Source: a virus
Virus record (IMG/VR): IMGVR_UViG_3300034375_007237
Location: 1-39,698 of that record
Length of the DNA: 39,698 bases
Direction: 5' to 3' (one strand)
The first letter of the stretch is position 1, and every line of letters begins with the position of its first letter. A model generated the notes under the pieces. It did not search any database. It saw only the letters and a list, made by a program, of their open reading frames with translations, and had not been told where the DNA came from. The position numbers and the translations under genes were made by a program. Positions 9,197-15,214 of this stretch are shown one piece after another.

Positions 9197-9760
9197 TCAG
9201 TTTGCGTCAACAATATTAGGATAAGAAGGAGTATTACCAGTTTCAATACCAGACATGGCAACAAGAATTTCCTTCTTGACTCTCAGGTTTCCTGCGTTAT
9301 CAACATAAGTTGTAACACCAACCCAACCAACACCGACTTCATAAGTAGTTGCGTTTGCGTCTTGAGCTCCAGCAGTTGAGATGCCATAAACTCTAGCAGA
9401 GAAATCATTTCCGATTGCCTGCGACTCACTGTAGTGCGAATCAACGATGGTGTACTTAGGAAGTTGTGAACCTTGGAATGATGTTCCAGCGATAGCAGCA
9501 CCACTCAGTCCAGCAGTTGAACCAATGGTTAATTGAGTTGTGCTAGCGATACTTACAACTACCGCATCACCGAAATAGGTTCCTGGCTTCTCCATGGAAC
9601 CAAAACGAATCACATCTCCCTCTTGAATTGAACCCGTCTCACCGAACAGAGTTCCAGAACCAGGAGATTCTAAGTTAGAACCAGTAACGATACCAGTTGC
9701 ATAATTTAGAGTAACGGTGCCCTGCGCGTCACGATTGTCATTATTGCCCCAGAGTGCCAT
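9197..9760 (-). CDS. Putative virion structural protein, 187 aa
   Basis: The sequence is Gly/Thr/Ser-rich and beta-strand patterned (MALWGNNDNRDAQGTVTLNY, TGIVTGSNLESPGSGTLFGE), without Cys and with few Lys, as in phage capsid-decorating or tail proteins. Its short repeated strand units suggest a beta-sandwich. A perfect TATAAATA late promoter lies 35 bases upstream and directly follows a strong terminator, so it is the first gene of its own late unit. It matches proteins labelled structural in cyanomyoviruses by recollection. The exact location in the virion is not known. Confidence 0.7.
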   Translation of the reverse strand: MALWGNNDNRDAQGTVTLNYATGIVTGSNLESPGSGTLFGETGSIQEGDVIRFGSMEKPGTYFGDAVVVSIASTTQLTIGSTAGLSGAAIAGTSFQGSQLPKYTIVDSHYSESQAIGNDFSARVYGISTAGAQDANATTYEVGVGWVGVTTYVDNAGNLRVKKEILVAMSGIETGNTPSYPNIVDAN

Positions 9761-9794
9761 GTCTTTCTTCCGAATAAATTTATTTGCTATAAGA

Positions 9795-9802
9795 TATTTA
9801 TA
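9795..9802 (-). promoter_or_regulatory. T4-type late promoter (TATAAATA)
   Basis: A perfect late consensus on the minus strand, 35 bases before the 187-residue structural-type gene and contiguous with the T tract of the preceding terminator. Confidence 0.75.
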
Positions 9803-9836
9803 AAAATAGGATACCCTGAAATTAGGATATCCTATT
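9802..9836 (-). terminator. Rho-independent terminator fused to the late promoter
   Basis: AATAGGATATCC and GGGTATCCTATT form a 12-bp stem with one G-U pair and an 8-base loop. They are followed by TTTT, which leads straight into TATAAATA. It ends the 68-residue gene transcript. Confidence 0.8.
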
Positions 9837-9839
9837 GGA

Positions 9840-10046
9840 TTATTCTTCGCCTTCGCGTGTTCTAATCGCTTTAGCTACAACTTCTAAAAGTTGATCGTCC
9901 ATTTCAGTTTTAGTCAATTTAACTGCTTTGCCAAGGATAACCAGGCAAATTTCGATTAACTTTTCGCCCAGTTCCTCATTTTCAGGAATCTTGGCAACTG
10001 CATCAGAAATTACTTTCGATGCTAATGGGAGTAAAAATGAAAGCAT
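9840..10046 (-). CDS. Hypothetical protein, 68 aa
   Basis: The ATG at 10046 is preceded by GAGGT at 5 bases, better than the TTG at 10058. The protein starts with a hydrophobic segment (MLSFLLPLASKVISDAVAKI) and continues as amphipathic helices with acidic and basic faces. No family is recognised. A terminator lies 4 bases after its stop, so it is the last gene of a transcript that begins at or before the 711-residue gene. Confidence 0.6.
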   Translation of the reverse strand: MLSFLLPLASKVISDAVAKIPENEELGEKLIEICLVILGKAVKLTKTEMDDQLLEVVAKAIRTREGEE

Positions 10047-10077
10047 GATGAACCTCAATAGGTATACAAACTATATA

Positions 10078-12213
10078 TCAAATATCTTTCTTTTTCTGAA
10101 GAGATTGTTCTCTTCTCTTAGAAATCATTAAGTCAATTTTAGTTTTTTTCTTCTGAAGAGCAAGTTCTTCAGGAGACATTGGCATTTCAGTTGCACCCTC
10201 TTTTACTTCTTTCTTTTCAGGAAGTCCTTTGTGCTTGGTTTTAGCAAAGTCTTTTGCTTCCTTTCCAGTCATTGAAGCAGCTGCTTTTGCAACTTCAGGT
10301 GATGGTGCTGCCATCTTTCCTTTCTTAGTTGCATAAACCATTCCCATAAAGCGTTGTTGTGCTTTAGAGAGTGCCTTCTCATCAATCTGCTCAACACCTT
10401 CAACATACTGAGAACGATACTTGCCACCAGTCTTCTTGTGAGTATCAGCAAGTTCTGCTGCTCTTGCGTCAGCATACTTCTTACTCTTCACAGGTTTACC
10501 AATCTTCTTCTCCTTGCCACCATCAGGAGAACCCATCACTTGAAAAGGCATTTCATCAAGTTGTTCTCCTTCAGGTTCATAAGAACTATAGATACCTGCT
10601 TTCATTCCTCTATACTGCTTTTCCATAGCAGCAAGAGCAGCCTTCTTGTCCTTTCTTTCGTTGGATCTTTTGAGTCTTTCCTTAGACTCTCCTGGTTTTC
10701 TGCCAAGATACCTTCTTCTCTGAAGATCTGTCAACTCTTCAATCTGCTCCACTTCTTCTTTCTGTGATTTTCTTTTTCTTTCATCACGATCATACCAAGT
10801 CTCTTTCTTTTTGGGGTTATCTTGAGACTTTTTTGTCTGAGGAGATACCATGTAGATTTCATCCACATTCTCAACTTCTTCCTTTGCTGTTGTTTTAGCA
10901 GCAGGACTCCTGTATTTGTCTGCCTTAGATGCTTTTTCAGAAGCAGCAGCACCACTGTATGATTTCTTTTTGTTTTCAGCAGCATTCTTTTTGATTTCTC
11001 TATTCAGAAGTGCTTGCTTCAGTTTCATTCTTTTGCTGAGAGCAGGAGGATTTCCTACTGCCTTAGCCATAGTCATTCCAATTCCTTCTTCAATCTCATT
11101 TTCCTCACTCATGCGCTTGGCAACTTTCTCTGCCTGCTTCTTAATGAATCCTTTTACACTTTTCTTTGCTTTTCCAGGAGCATCAGCAACTGCTTGACGT
11201 GCCTTTCTAGTCTTATAACCAGCAGTTTGTGCTACTTCTCTACCTTTATTATATGCAGCAACTTGTGCTTTTGCTGATGCATATTTTGCCGACTTCTTAG
11301 CAGCACCAATTTTTTCACCTACCTTTCTTCTCAGATATCTAAGGCGTCCCTTTGCCTTCTTCATCACATCGTCTTTCTTGGTTGGAGTATCATGTCCAAA
11401 AGTAACCTTTGCTTCAGTTAGTGCATACTCAATTGCTTCTTCAATATCATCTTCACCATAACCTTCCTCAAGAAGTTCATCATATACACTTTCAACAACA
11501 AAATCAAACTCATCAATCTCAACCATTTCAATCAAGGTTGCACCAATTTCCTCAAGTGCTTCGCCCAGAGTAGGATTGATTTTGATTTTATTGTTTACTT
11601 TCTTCTCTTTGATTGGTTTGGAATCAATATCATCATCCATTATTTCAGCTAAGTCAGTTCTCCAGTTAGAGAGAGACTCTGCCATTTTAGTTCTAACCTT
11701 CTTCTTACCATCAGGAGAAGGAACAAACTCACCCATTCCTGTTTCTTTGGGATCGTCCTTATCTACATCACCATCGTTGTCAGCATCAATTCTCTTGACT
11801 GCTTTCTTTACCAATCCTTTGAGATTCTTGTCTGGAACTTCATGAGGAGCATGAACTCCCATTTTTGTAACTTCAGCAAGTTCTTTCTCTTCTTTCATTC
11901 TCTTCTTCATCGCCTTGCCAATAGCCTTGCGACGCTTATGAAGATACTTGTCTGACTTATCTGTGTCGCCATCATTATCAATGTCTGCATCCTCTTGTCC
12001 TACTGGATCAAGTGCTTCCATTGCTGCCTTTCTCTTTGCCGCGCTCTTAGCAAGCAGTCTTTCTTTTGCTGCCTGCTGTTCATCCTTAGGAATGTTGAAC
12101 ATATTTCTATCAGTCTTCAACTTCTCTTTAGGAGGTTCAACTTTTGCCTCAGCAACCTGATCTAAATATACCTTCGAAATAGCATTCAAAGGATTAGGAG
12201 CAATTCCAGACAT
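10078..12213 (-). CDS. Large basic protein with EF-hand-like loops, putative internal virion protein
   Basis: The 711-residue protein is extremely Lys/Ala/Glu-rich and mostly helical. Two 12-residue loops fit the EF-hand pattern exactly: D77-x-D79-x-D81-G-D-x-D85-x-x-D88 and D143-x-D145-x-D147-G-D-x-D151-x-x-D154. The middle (about 285-370) is a very basic helical region. A short motif recurs through the C-terminal half: VENVDE (447-452), VEQIEE (488-493), EQLDE (550-554) and VEQIDE (607-612). These resemble the (L/I)-x-E sites cut by T4 prohead protease gp21. A late promoter lies 32 bases upstream. Residues 119-126 (GVHAPHEV) recur in the 236-residue late protein. Head location is inferred. 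Confidence 0.65.
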   Translation of the reverse strand: MSGIAPNPLNAISKVYLDQVAEAKVEPPKEKLKTDRNMFNIPKDEQQAAKERLLAKSAAKRKAAMEALDPVGQEDADIDNDGDTDKSDKYLHKRRKAIGKAMKKRMKEEKELAEVTKMGVHAPHEVPDKNLKGLVKKAVKRIDADNDGDVDKDDPKETGMGEFVPSPDGKKKVRTKMAESLSNWRTDLAEIMDDDIDSKPIKEKKVNNKIKINPTLGEALEEIGATLIEMVEIDEFDFVVESVYDELLEEGYGEDDIEEAIEYALTEAKVTFGHDTPTKKDDVMKKAKGRLRYLRRKVGEKIGAAKKSAKYASAKAQVAAYNKGREVAQTAGYKTRKARQAVADAPGKAKKSVKGFIKKQAEKVAKRMSEENEIEEGIGMTMAKAVGNPPALSKRMKLKQALLNREIKKNAAENKKKSYSGAAASEKASKADKYRSPAAKTTAKEEVENVDEIYMVSPQTKKSQDNPKKKETWYDRDERKRKSQKEEVEQIEELTDLQRRRYLGRKPGESKERLKRSNERKDKKAALAAMEKQYRGMKAGIYSSYEPEGEQLDEMPFQVMGSPDGGKEKKIGKPVKSKKYADARAAELADTHKKTGGKYRSQYVEGVEQIDEKALSKAQQRFMGMVYATKKGKMAAPSPEVAKAAASMTGKEAKDFAKTKHKGLPEKKEVKEGATEMPMSPEELALQKKKTKIDLMISKRREQSLQKKKDI

Positions 12214-12224
12214 GTTAATACTAC

Positions 12225-13511
12225 TTACTTTTTAACCTTATACTTATTTATGAATTCCTTTATATTAACCCCCTTATAAGGTTTGGCTCCTGTTTGAAGA
12301 TTTGTCTTGTCTCCTTTTTCAAATCCAGGAGTAAGTGCTGCAGCATTCTTGAAATATCCACCAGTTCCTTCTAAGGTATTTGGTTTTCCAGGAACTCTCA
12401 TACGACGTTCCATTTTACGCTCAGTATATTCCATAACGTCACGAATCCATGATTTGAACATGTAGTTCTCTTCTGTGACACAAATAAGGTGATTGGTTCC
12501 TCTGCGAATAATTTCACCAATCAATCCAGTATTTAAGTTCTCTACAATATCACCAATTCTATAAATGAATCCATTGACGTATTGCTCACGAAGTCCTCTT
12601 GGATCACACTTAGGTGCAATCTGCCAAAGTTCGGTAACTTCTTTTTTCTTTTTCTTGGAACCCATTCCTTGACGGACTGCATCAAAGAGTGCTCTTGTAT
12701 CTCCATCATCCAATGACTTTGGTGTTCCTCTACGGAAAGAATCAAAGTCATCATCCATAACAGCCTTTCTCATCTTGGATGCTGACATTCCTTCCACACC
12801 TTCAGCATCAGCATCTCTTACACCAGCAGAGATAACACGAATCAAGTCAAAGTCATACAATTCACCATTGTACTTTTGTGCAAGGTTCTCAAACTCTGCT
12901 TGTCTATCAGAACCCACAACAATATTAACGTTTTCGTATCCAGCTTCACTAGCAGCAATCAATACGTTAAAGATTGATTTCATTTCAGCATCATTAATAA
13001 TGTTCTCATCAAAGTCAGGGAACATCTTCTTCATATACGAAATTTTCATGTCAGGATCCAATGGATTCTTCTTAGGATCTTGAGTTCTTGAAGGATAGAT
13101 TTTTAAGTCTCCACCCTCAGACGCTTTCTGTGCTGACTTCAGAAGTTTCTCATGTCCAACTGTTGGTGGATTGAAACGTCCAAACGCAACAGTCAGAGTA
13201 TCAGACATTTCACCTTCTGCTGGAGTTGCTTCAGGTGCTGCTTTAGCTTTTGGTTTTTCTTCTGGTGCAACTTTTGCTTTTGCAGGTTCTGCTGCTTGTG
13301 GTTTTGCAGCAGCAAGTTTCTTTCCAGGTTCTTCTTCTTTCTTTTTATCTTTCTTATCAACAAAAACAAGTTTTCCTTTTTCAGTAGTCGCAACAAAATT
13401 ACCACGAGTGTCCAACCAACCACCGTGGCCATCACTCTTAAGGTTTAACTTCCTCGCCTGCATACTTGCCTGCGATTGTGCCTCACTTAAAAATTGGAAA
13501 AAACTTTTCAT
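12225..13511 (-). CDS. Nucleotidyltransferase-domain protein with capsid-targeting-like N terminus
   Basis: The 428-residue protein begins MKSFFQFLSEAQSQA, strikingly like the capsid-targeting sequence of T4 internal proteins (MKTYQEFIAEA), with a potential gp21 cut after L-S-E. An Ala/Lys/Pro-rich linker (55-101) leads to a cytidylyltransferase-like domain: GRFNPPTVGH (111-120) is a variant of the GxFxPxHxGH nucleotide site with Thr for the first His, and MSASKMRKA (242-250) matches the ISxxxxR-type motif. A C-terminal segment (about 312-350) looks like a KOW/SH3-type barrel. An AATAAATA late promoter lies 24 bases before the start. Transfer of a nucleotide to an unknown substrate is inferred. 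Confidence 0.75.
   Translation of the reverse strand: MKSFFQFLSEAQSQASMQARKLNLKSDGHGGWLDTRGNFVATTEKGKLVFVDKKDKKKEEEPGKKLAAAKPQAAEPAKAKVAPEEKPKAKAAPEATPAEGEMSDTLTVAFGRFNPPTVGHEKLLKSAQKASEGGDLKIYPSRTQDPKKNPLDPDMKISYMKKMFPDFDENIINDAEMKSIFNVLIAASEAGYENVNIVVGSDRQAEFENLAQKYNGELYDFDLIRVISAGVRDADAEGVEGMSASKMRKAVMDDDFDSFRRGTPKSLDDGDTRALFDAVRQGMGSKKKKKEVTELWQIAPKCDPRGLREQYVNGFIYRIGDIVENLNTGLIGEIIRRGTNHLICVTEENYMFKSWIRDVMEYTERKMERRMRVPGKPNTLEGTGGYFKNAAALTPGFEKGDKTNLQTGAKPYKGVNIKEFINKYKVKK
12245..12252 (-). promoter_or_regulatory. T4-type late promoter motif (CATAAATA) for the 711-aa gene
   Basis: CATAAATA on the minus strand, within the last codons of the nucleotidyltransferase gene and 32 bases before the next start. 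Confidence 0.55.
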
Positions 13512-13534
13512 TTATATTGTTAGTCCTTATACTA

Positions 13535-13542
13535 TATTTATT
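13535..13542 (-). promoter_or_regulatory. T4-type late promoter motif (AATAAATA)
   Basis: AATAAATA on the minus strand at the very end of the putative nuclease gene, 24 bases before the nucleotidyltransferase start. Confidence 0.5.
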
Positions 13543-14329
13543 ACATATTGGCAATTAAGAAATCAATACTATCGTCTTTAGTAATATCAAAAGCAGATCT
13601 TGTTGGTTTTTTATCAATTAATAATGCTGTACTAAATCTATAATTTGGATCGCTACTACTTCCTTTTTTTCTAATTCTAAGTTTTAGAGACCCATTAAAT
13701 TTAATCATTTCAGTAAATCTAGAAATTCCTGCAGGATCTCTACCCATATAATAAGTTCCGTAACCACCAATGTGGATGTAAAATATATTTTTAGAGTTAT
13801 AAAAATTGGACATAGTGGTATTATCTATAGGAATATACTTATCAGGAAAAGTCTTATAATCATATTCCTTATCGCCCCAAGTAACACTTTGTCTATTTGA
13901 TTGTCTCTCAAATAATCTAGGAACTCCAGAATTTCCCCAAGCATCATTAGAGTTTACAAAATCTTCAACACCAAGTTTTTTCAAATTTTCTCTCATAGTT
14001 CTATCTTGAATGGTATTCTTACCATCAAGATACCACTTTTTTGTTGAAACATTATATTTCAATCCACTCTGGCCATAATCTGCGTTTTCATCCAGTTTAA
14101 TTTCTAAATTTTGTGGATTACCATTCCACAAAAACTTACAATCCGGAGCACTATTGTCAGCTCCCGCAGGAGTAAATCCAGAAGGAACTAAATCATTTTC
14201 TTTTAATTTTTCAAAAACAAACTTTTCATACAAAAATCCTTTATTTTTGATATTTTCGGGTTGATCATAATAATCTTTATCTTGAACGTTATCTTCAGTA
14301 TGACGCTTTCTTGCCAATGTTTTTGCCAT
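13541..14329 (-). CDS. Putative PD-(D/E)XK-fold nuclease, 262 aa
   Basis: The ATG at 14329 (MAKTLARKRHTEDN) is preferred to a TTG at 14338. The N-terminal third has the restriction-endonuclease-fold signature: an acidic helix (FLYEKFVFEKL), then PDCKFLWNG supplying Asp, then NLEIKLDENADYGQSGL supplying Glu-x-Lys and a following Gln. The rest is beta-rich with conserved-looking aromatic segments (FYIHIGGYGTYYMGRD). I recall uncharacterised relatives in cyanophages. It lies between tRNA-Ala and the capsid-targeted nucleotidyltransferase. DNA cleavage is inferred from motifs only. Confidence 0.55.
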   Translation of the reverse strand: MAKTLARKRHTEDNVQDKDYYDQPENIKNKGFLYEKFVFEKLKENDLVPSGFTPAGADNSAPDCKFLWNGNPQNLEIKLDENADYGQSGLKYNVSTKKWYLDGKNTIQDRTMRENLKKLGVEDFVNSNDAWGNSGVPRLFERQSNRQSVTWGDKEYDYKTFPDKYIPIDNTTMSNFYNSKNIFYIHIGGYGTYYMGRDPAGISRFTEMIKFNGSLKLRIRKKGSSSDPNYRFSTALLIDKKPTRSAFDITKDDSIDFLIANM

Positions 14330-14361
14330 AACACTCAAACACTATTTCAAGTATTTAGAAA

Positions 14362-14434
14362 TGGAAAATAGCGGACTCGAACCGCTGACATCCTGCTTGC
14401 AAAGCAGGCGCTCTACCAACTGAGCTAATTCCCC
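14362..14434 (-). tRNA. tRNA-Ala (anticodon UGC)
   Basis: Acceptor GGGGAAT/ATTTTCC with two G-U pairs, D arm GCTC/GAGC, anticodon stem CCTGC/GCAGG with loop TTTGCAA (TGC), T arm AGCGG-TTCGAGT-CCGCT, discriminator A. No CCA is encoded. It stands alone, with a strong hairpin 18 bases upstream. Confidence 0.93.
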
Positions 14435-14451
14435 TAACAAAGACATTATAA

Positions 14452-14480
14452 AACCCTCTCAACTAAAAGTCAAGAGGGTT
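14452..14480 (-). terminator. Strong hairpin, terminator or tRNA 5' processing element
   Basis: A 13-bp stem with two G-U pairs and a TTT loop (minus strand AACCCTCTTGACT / AGTTGAGAGGGTT), followed by TTAT. It lies between the 236-residue late gene and tRNA-Ala. The weak T tract makes termination uncertain. It also matches the habit of a hairpin preceding tRNAs seen at 2.6-2.9 kb. Confidence 0.6.
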
Positions 14481-14497
14481 AGAGCAAACTTCCGATT

Positions 14498-14505
14498 TAT
14501 TTATC
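14498..14505 (-). promoter_or_regulatory. Late promoter motif (GATAAATA) upstream of tRNA-Ala
   Basis: GATAAATA on the minus strand overlaps the stop of the 236-residue gene and lies 64 bases before tRNA-Ala. Confidence 0.4.
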
Positions 14506-15214
14506 AGAGACCCTTAGCGTGTCTTGTTTTGCCACTCTCATCAGTCCAGGTTTCTCTTTCGCGTCTTGGAGTTACATAACCTACACCAGGAACAGCACCA
14601 GTCTTTCCTTGGTCTCTTGCAGCATTTCTTGCTGCTGCTCTTTGTGCTGCTCTCTTACGATTCTTCTCATAATTAGTCATTGCCTCATCAAACCATGCTT
14701 CAAACTCTTCCTTCTTATCCTTTTCAATACGAGCAGACATCTTACGAATCTGGTCAATACTCATATTGCCTGTACCAGTGAACCCTGGCTTAGAAGGATC
14801 TGGTTGCTTAGAATGACCCGATTTGCGACCCTCAGGATCTCTTGCCATGCGACGATTCTCGTCAAGTTCATGAATAATATCAATCGCTTCCTCATCAATC
14901 ATGTTTGCCATCATCCACTCTGCTTCTTCCAGAGTTTCTGCAAATCCTTCTGCTTGGAGGAACTCAAGGACTACATCAAAAATATCAAGTTCTTCACCCA
15001 TTCTCTTGCGTTTTGCATAAGCTATTTGCGATAACTTATGAGAAGCATACTTTTCACCTTCTTTTGCTGGAAGAGGTCTATGACCTGCTCTTCTTTCTGC
15101 AGCAAGGTCCTTTCTTCTTTCTGAAGGTTCACCCTTTACTGCTTCATCAACTTCTTGAGGAGCATGAACCTGCTCAAATGCTTCCATCAAACCTCTAAGA
15201 TTATTAAGATCCAT
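14504..15214 (-). CDS. Putative head-associated late protein, 236 aa
   Basis: The protein is charged and helical. It starts MDLNNLRGLMEAFEQVHAPQ, giving a potential gp21-type processing site after L-M-E and a second after E-V-D-E (21-24). The VHAPQEV motif is shared with GVHAPHEV of the 711-residue late protein. The middle (about 71-115) is acidic and the C-terminal part is Arg/Ala-rich (KNRKRAAQRAAARNAARDQG) before a Gly/Pro/Thr tail, suggesting nucleic-acid contact. A perfect TATAAATA late promoter lies 28 bases before the start. No enzymatic motif is seen. Packaging in the head is inference. Confidence 0.6.
   Translation of the reverse strand: MDLNNLRGLMEAFEQVHAPQEVDEAVKGEPSERRKDLAAERRAGHRPLPAKEGEKYASHKLSQIAYAKRKRMGEELDIFDVVLEFLQAEGFAETLEEAEWMMANMIDEEAIDIIHELDENRRMARDPEGRKSGHSKQPDPSKPGFTGTGNMSIDQIRKMSARIEKDKKEEFEAWFDEAMTNYEKNRKRAAQRAAARNAARDQGKTGAVPGVGYVTPRRERETWTDESGKTRHAKGL

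Follow-up and report, generated by a model that had tools for sequence, protein, structure and literature searches.

Locus and gene family

By our own ORF interpretation, which we compared with the annotated gene orders of S-SM2, P-SSM2, and Bellamy, the window (the whole 39.7-kb stretch of DNA that was analyzed, an IMG/VR record) carries a T4-like cyanophage replication region that encodes nrdA/B, gp61, mazG, gp41, uvsX, gp43, regA, clamp loader, gp46/47, gp55, and uvsW. The record is a fragment without gp21, gp22, and gp23; the prohead protease gp21 is annotated in relatives. The gene described here, the parts of its product, and an upstream element are listed below (CTS, capsid-targeting sequence).

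12225–13511, minus strand: T4-GC190 nucleotidyltransferase gene, 428 aa, stop included in the coordinates (ORF and translation)
13479–13511, minus strand: CTS-like N-terminal peptide MKSFFQFLSE/A, residues 1–11, with gp21 cleavage predicted after residue 10
13341–13478, minus strand: small SDGHGGW module, residues 12–57, conserved in the window's and P-SSM2 clades and folded in the model
13209–13340, minus strand: low-complexity linker, residues 58–101, pLDDT <50 and disordered in the model; pN/pS 0.97
12654–13202, minus strand: HxGH-type nucleotidyltransferase domain, residues 104–286, with GRFNPPTVGH and MSASKMRKA, invariant motif columns, and VIA-align Z 12–13
12429–12554, minus strand: small C-terminal barrel-like domain, residues 320–361 (model strands 322–361; pN/pS 0.16)
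13535–13541, minus strand: late-promoter-like ATAAATA, with its first base 30 nt before the ATG

The ORF and translation were rechecked, and the ORF, strand, coordinates, length, and all motifs quoted in a preliminary description of this DNA were correct. The protein begins MKSFFQFLSEAQSQASMQARKLNLKSDGHGGW..., with GRFNPPTVGH at residues 111–120 and MSASKMRKA at residues 242–250. The PHROG_395 "cytidyltransferase" profile matches it with E=1e-103. Orthologues are S-SM2 SSM2_161, P-SSM2_194, Bellamy 170, and the S-SCSM1 "NMNAT", which is 64% identical across the full length. The sequence match and the position near mazG/gp41 and gp61/nrdA place it in T4-GC190 (PHROG_395). Judged by sequence, the gene is a member of this cyanophage "cytidyltransferase/NMNAT" group, with the same family, synteny, and N terminus and no essential difference. 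In the comparison of 16 cyanophages by Sullivan et al. (PMC3037559, excerpts), T4-GC190 belonged to the core gene set.

Protein anatomy and predicted chemistry

The AlphaFold2 model of the enzyme has a mean pLDDT of 76.7. The N-terminal ten residues average 55, and a helix is modeled at residues 4–10 within this low-confidence segment. The C-terminal barrel is a separate gene (gp151) in ACG-2014e. In S-CRM01, an SDGHGGW-type module is a separate neighboring protein (SCRM01_128, L355:1899-2450) with an SFIKEA string that may be a second CTS.

The central domain is assigned to the HxGH type from its G-x-F-x-P-x-[HT]-x-G-H motif, an ISSTxxR-like motif, and its fold. It shares the fold and two signature motifs with cellular PPAT (CoaD), NadD, and NadM, at only about 10–19% sequence identity, and differs in adding the N-terminal peptide, SDGHGGW module, linker, and C-terminal barrel. 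VIA-align of the domain model gave Z 13.4 for PPAT (2.9 Å, 150 residues), 12.4 for NadD, and 12.2 for NadM. These three are effectively tied, so NMNAT activity is plausible but unproven, and NAD synthesis by the modeled enzyme is possible at somewhat less than even probability. There is an even chance that it is no NMN adenylyltransferase and adenylylates (or cytidylylates) another phosphorylated compound, e.g., a phosphopantetheine-like one. PPAT is the top structural match, with NadD and NadM within about 1.4 Z units; the motif mixes a NadM-like GRF.P with a PPAT-like T.GH; and none of the NMNAT models scored above its own cut-off. The sequence leads toward NadM/NadR are weak but point the other way (TIGR01526, E=0.023; PHROG_3462, E=0.047; MJ0541, E=0.24). 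Searching PDB sequences with the enzyme profile (hmmsearch) yielded nothing above chance level.

Two other assignments were rejected. "Cytidyltransferase" is a superfamily label, and the listed structural matches are adenylyltransferases. Namat/NARP1-type NAD+ reconstitution does not fit, as the Namat paper itself describes a Nampt-like enzyme and the window enzyme has an HxGH fold.

N-terminal peptide

The N terminus had been likened to the T4 IPIII sequence MKTYQEFIAEA, and the likeness holds: residues 1, 2, 7, 10, and 11 are identical and residues 3, 4, 8, and 9 are conservative. In IPIII, targeting needs no more than the first ten residues; of these, residues 4 and 7 are important for targeting and residues 8 and 10 for processing, and gp21 cleaves after [LI]xE (PMC9026906). 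The window enzyme has the corresponding peptide of about ten residues, with an aromatic residue at 4, F7, L/I8, and E10. Its decapeptide matches the CTS of IPII/IPIII (MKTYQEFIAE/A) in length, spacing, and key residues, and is likewise followed by an [LI]xE/A site. Beyond the CTS the sequences are unrelated; the T4 proteins are small and basic, whereas the window's is an enzyme for which cleavage is predicted.

Comparison of homologues, the check proposed at the outset, showed the motif to be conserved in 251 of 255 distinct IMG/VR orthologues, which span four divergent clades. The pattern was M.{1,2}[FYL]..F[LIM].E, and it matched 11 of 6,486 other ORFs in the same loci; T4 internal proteins account for two of these 11, and one small structural-region protein for three. 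The strict motif is broken in the other four orthologues. Positions F4, F7, L/I8, and E10 are nearly fixed, and positions 3, 5, 6, 9, and 12 vary. The fixed positions are those that IPIII needs, which is taken as support for the CTS reading. In most of the S-SZBM1 clade, the spacing is unchanged but the motif is preceded by one residue less. An alignment of 61 diverse sequences shows no variation at F7 and E10, as at the catalytic motifs.

Fixed residues are encoded by different codons (F by TTT/TTC, E by GAA/GAG, L by five codons), so selection acts on the protein. In the window's clade, the peptide is the most constrained segment: its pN/pS is 0.10, whereas the enzyme domain has 0.21, the SDGHGGW module 0.26, and the linker 0.97. 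Values for the peptide in other clades are 0.17 (S-RIM8), 0.40 (P-SSM2), and 0.36 (S-SZBM1); the last two are higher because non-key positions drift.

A DNA pattern modeled on the T4 CTS, ATGAARNNNTWYNNNNNNTTYNTNNNNGARNC, was scanned in T4 and nine other phage genomes. Its only two sites in T4 begin ORFs of 100 and 193 aa that start MKTYQEFIAEA, which we take to be IPII and IPIII. The nine other genomes have eight sites, five of them in GC190 orthologues, and the reversed pattern had zero sites in all ten genomes. The strict DNA pattern misses Bellamy (L at position 4) and S-SZBM1 (MRF start), though both carry the motif. The peptide has no counterpart in three jumbo-phage homologues that have the enzyme domain (GAP32, Deifobo, and pEa_SNUABM_50). 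Among cyanophages, the exception is ACG-2014e, in which the enzyme lacks the CTS and enzyme and barrel are on separate genes. An IMG/VR search with the S-CREM2 form of the enzyme returned one locus.

Other proteins begin with similar strings. A small conserved structural-region protein starts MKTFKQFMSES, MKSYNEFISES, or MKSFKSFLSES in S-SCSM1 (gp030, L087:44215-44535), S-RIM8 (L185), and S-SZBM1 (L093), and is a second CTS candidate. PSSM2_115 (P-SSM2 record 100269-100529; L182) is a lysine-rich protein of 86 aa that starts MKSFKQFLEEA and is possibly an IP-like small packaged protein.

Late-promoter-like element

The late promoter claimed to precede the gene corresponds to a late-promoter-like ATAAATA, 30 nt upstream of the ATG. 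The string lies upstream in 45 of 64 distinct orthologues of the window's clade, mostly at 26–31 nt, compared with an expectation of about 2; the background rate is 0.034 per 70 nt. Within 70 nt, it precedes four of five cassette genes and six of 45 others (Fisher P=0.004; cassette gene list our own). It is absent directly upstream of the gene in clades other than the window's. A late promoter was therefore rejected as a general feature of the GC190 gene; other clades perhaps transcribe the gene from further upstream. The whole window has 15 ATAAATA strings, all on the minus (coding) strand, and this total is not above shuffles (15 vs 10.2).

Virion detection of orthologues

Mass spectrometry of purified virions detected the family in S-SM1 in 2010 (PMC3037559, excerpts), in S-SCSM1 in 2022 as "NMNAT" in CsCl-purified particles (PMC9602691, excerpts), in S-SZBM1 in 2022 (PMC9146016, excerpts), and in S-CREM2 in 2023 (PMC10665884, excerpts). 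All four orthologues carry the peptide: MKKFSAFLNEA in S-SM1, MKSFLQFLKEA in S-SCSM1, MRFRQFIIEA in S-SZBM1, and MKNFSSFLTEA in S-CREM2. Peptide counts are low, with two in S-SZBM1 (PMC9146016, excerpts) and three in S-CREM2 (PMC10665884, excerpts), and the GC190 protein is given as undetected in the S-PM2 study (PMC3037559, excerpts). The S-SCSM1 and S-CREM2 authors weigh both carriage into the host and carry-over (PMC9602691 and PMC10665884, excerpts). In S-SZBM1, emPAI is 0.26 for the enzyme, 0.30 for gp21, and 27.6 for gp23 (PMC9146016, excerpts), which suggests few enzyme copies per virion or partial carry-over.

Literature searches for a report of a CTS in cyanophages found only a T4 review, and the excerpts of the S-SM1, S-SCSM1, S-SZBM1, and S-CREM2 virion-proteome papers do not mention a CTS. 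Virion presence of the family is thus already published, and what is new is the proposed CTS as its targeting mechanism.

Neighboring genes

The S-SCSM1 genes around the enzyme are labeled virion proteins (gp089, gp282, gp280, gp279, and gp277). The neighbors in the window are:

14504–15214, minus strand: counterpart of S-SCSM1 virion protein gp089 (position and sequence resemblance)
13541–14338, minus strand: gene in the slot immediately upstream of the enzyme, for which an HhaI-like PD-(D/E)XK nuclease is predicted (motif and model)
10078–12213, minus strand: modular protein downstream of the enzyme, S-SCSM1 gp280-like with a gp279-like DUF3008 part
9197–9760, minus strand: counterpart of S-SCSM1 virion protein gp277 (both start MALWGN and keep LRVKKEILVAMSGI)

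The slot protein has invariant E35, P62-D63, and E76xK78, and its model aligned to HhaI endonuclease 6uke with Z 10.5 over 183 residues at 4.4 Å; plain Foldseek of the model gave no significant match. An HhaI-like PD-(D/E)XK nuclease is predicted from this model. The slot is hypervariable in the window's and P-SSM2 clades, with more than a dozen families by blastp, nearly all unrelated by profile comparison, in which slot proteins did not form one detectable family. The S-SCSM1 occupant is a virion protein from a family unrelated to the window's. Library scans of ten slot proteins returned only matches of unknown function or by chance, and PD-(D/E)XK motifs in other slot proteins were regex-level matches only. 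Other GC190 phages have, at or near the upstream position, a gene whose product carries a KWDGAPA-type motif similar to the KxDG motif found in ligase-type nucleotidyltransferases (L179:32296-33270, L174:7614-8510, L177:5478-6671, L175:2323-3579, and L354:293-1498).

The 10078–12213 protein has an ISKVYLDQV-type N-terminal string common to its relatives, followed by differing segments, and its C-terminal DUF3008-like part is a separate gene in relatives. It has 16 [LI]xE sites vs 7.0 expected (P=0.0005), and it may be an internal polyprotein processed by gp21. Two proteins encoded close to the enzyme gene in a methylotroph phage are Melnitz_15 (L175:1254-2339), which starts MQGFKTFLSEA, and the strongly basic Melnitz_17 (L175:3576-3968), which starts MKKFSELTSELIE.

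Proposed packaging, cleavage, and delivery

We propose that a T4-GC190 enzyme with an adenylyltransferase fold would be produced late in infection. Its first ten residues would act as a T4-type CTS, with F4 and F7 docking the protein into the prohead core. Cleavage by a gp21 homologue would follow L8-S9-E10, and the mature enzyme, with the N terminus A11-Q-S-Q, would remain in the head alongside the DNA at low copy number. It would probably enter the host at infection. NMN or a phosphorylated compound related to it is the best guess for its substrate. The motif, its strongly selected conservation, and its specificity are shown here, and the virion presence of orthologues was shown by others; docking, cleavage, injection, and substrate are the parts that we infer.

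The suggestion in the preliminary description that the enzyme is packaged gains support from the conserved N-terminal motif and from orthologues in purified virions of four phages. Packaging of the window enzyme through a T4-like CTS is very likely. Removal of the peptide by gp21, predicted from the cleavage motif, is likely. Candidate gp23 maturation sites, assigned by us from motif and position, resemble the predicted FLSE/A: FLAE/AP in S-SCSM1, LLTE/AP in S-CREM2, LTE/AA in S-SZBM1, and FLSE/AP in P-SSM2. P-SSM2-type GC190 proteins have T, S, or N after E10, so cleavage there is less certain. Given the tag match and the related enzymes in virions, the virus probably carries the enzyme into the host with the DNA; injection itself is favored, with less confidence than cleavage, and the enzyme may then act on the host before early expression. 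T4 Alt, a packaged and injected ADP-ribosyltransferase, resembles the proposed role as a head-carried, gp21-processed enzyme (PMC9026906). The chemistry and fold differ; Alt uses NAD+, whereas the window enzyme may make it.

The peptide could instead dock the protein to the prohead core for a role in head assembly, which T4 IPIII or the core proteins have in part, and would then be no host-directed effector. IPIII does affect head assembly (PMC9026906), and the core-gene status of GC190 in the 16 cyanophages of Sullivan et al. (PMC3037559, excerpts) would fit. However, the catalytic motifs are invariant, which assembly alone does not require, and the estimated abundance of the enzyme is low, about that of gp21 in S-SZBM1, and we consider such a role unlikely. 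Still less probable is that the enzyme acts late in the dying host, with virion presence as carry-over and the N-terminal helix serving oligomerization or another cellular role. The low peptide counts, the authors' own caution, and the undetected S-PM2 protein (all from the excerpts cited above) speak for carry-over. Against it stand the independent detection in four phages (same excerpts), conserved residues at exactly the CTS positions, the rarity of the motif in other proteins, and the neighboring gene products also found in S-SCSM1 virions. The reading of a late T4-GC190 enzyme that is CTS-packaged, cut, kept in the head, and probably delivered at infection is therefore preferred with good confidence. 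The late-promoter-like element, the resemblance to candidate gp23 sites, and the peptide-free jumbo-phage homologues also speak for this reading; the residues after E10 in P-SSM2-type proteins, the four orthologues that break the strict motif, the ACG-2014e enzyme, and the lack of the directly upstream element in other clades speak against it.

The virion-labeled S-SCSM1 neighbors, the hypervariable slot with its predicted nuclease in the window, and Melnitz_15 make a delivered-effector cassette a serious possibility. In full, positions 9197–15214 would be a late virion-delivered cassette comprising a CTS-targeted nucleotide-cofactor enzyme, a hypervariable slot (here with an HhaI-like nuclease of restriction-endonuclease type), and a modular polyprotein processed by gp21, and the genome would be injected together with all of them. 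This full form is tentative and rather unlikely. If true, cofactor supply would be secured and host DNA or defenses attacked before early expression.

GC190 is a core gene of T4-like cyanophages whose repeated appearance in virion proteomes lacked a mechanism, and the conserved CTS, very likely functional, would supply one and yields point-mutation predictions. The T4 code for head targeting would then apply in marine phages as well, and also to an enzyme that is probably metabolic. The CTS may also provide a simple N-terminal signature for predicting other phage proteins that are delivered to the host with the DNA.
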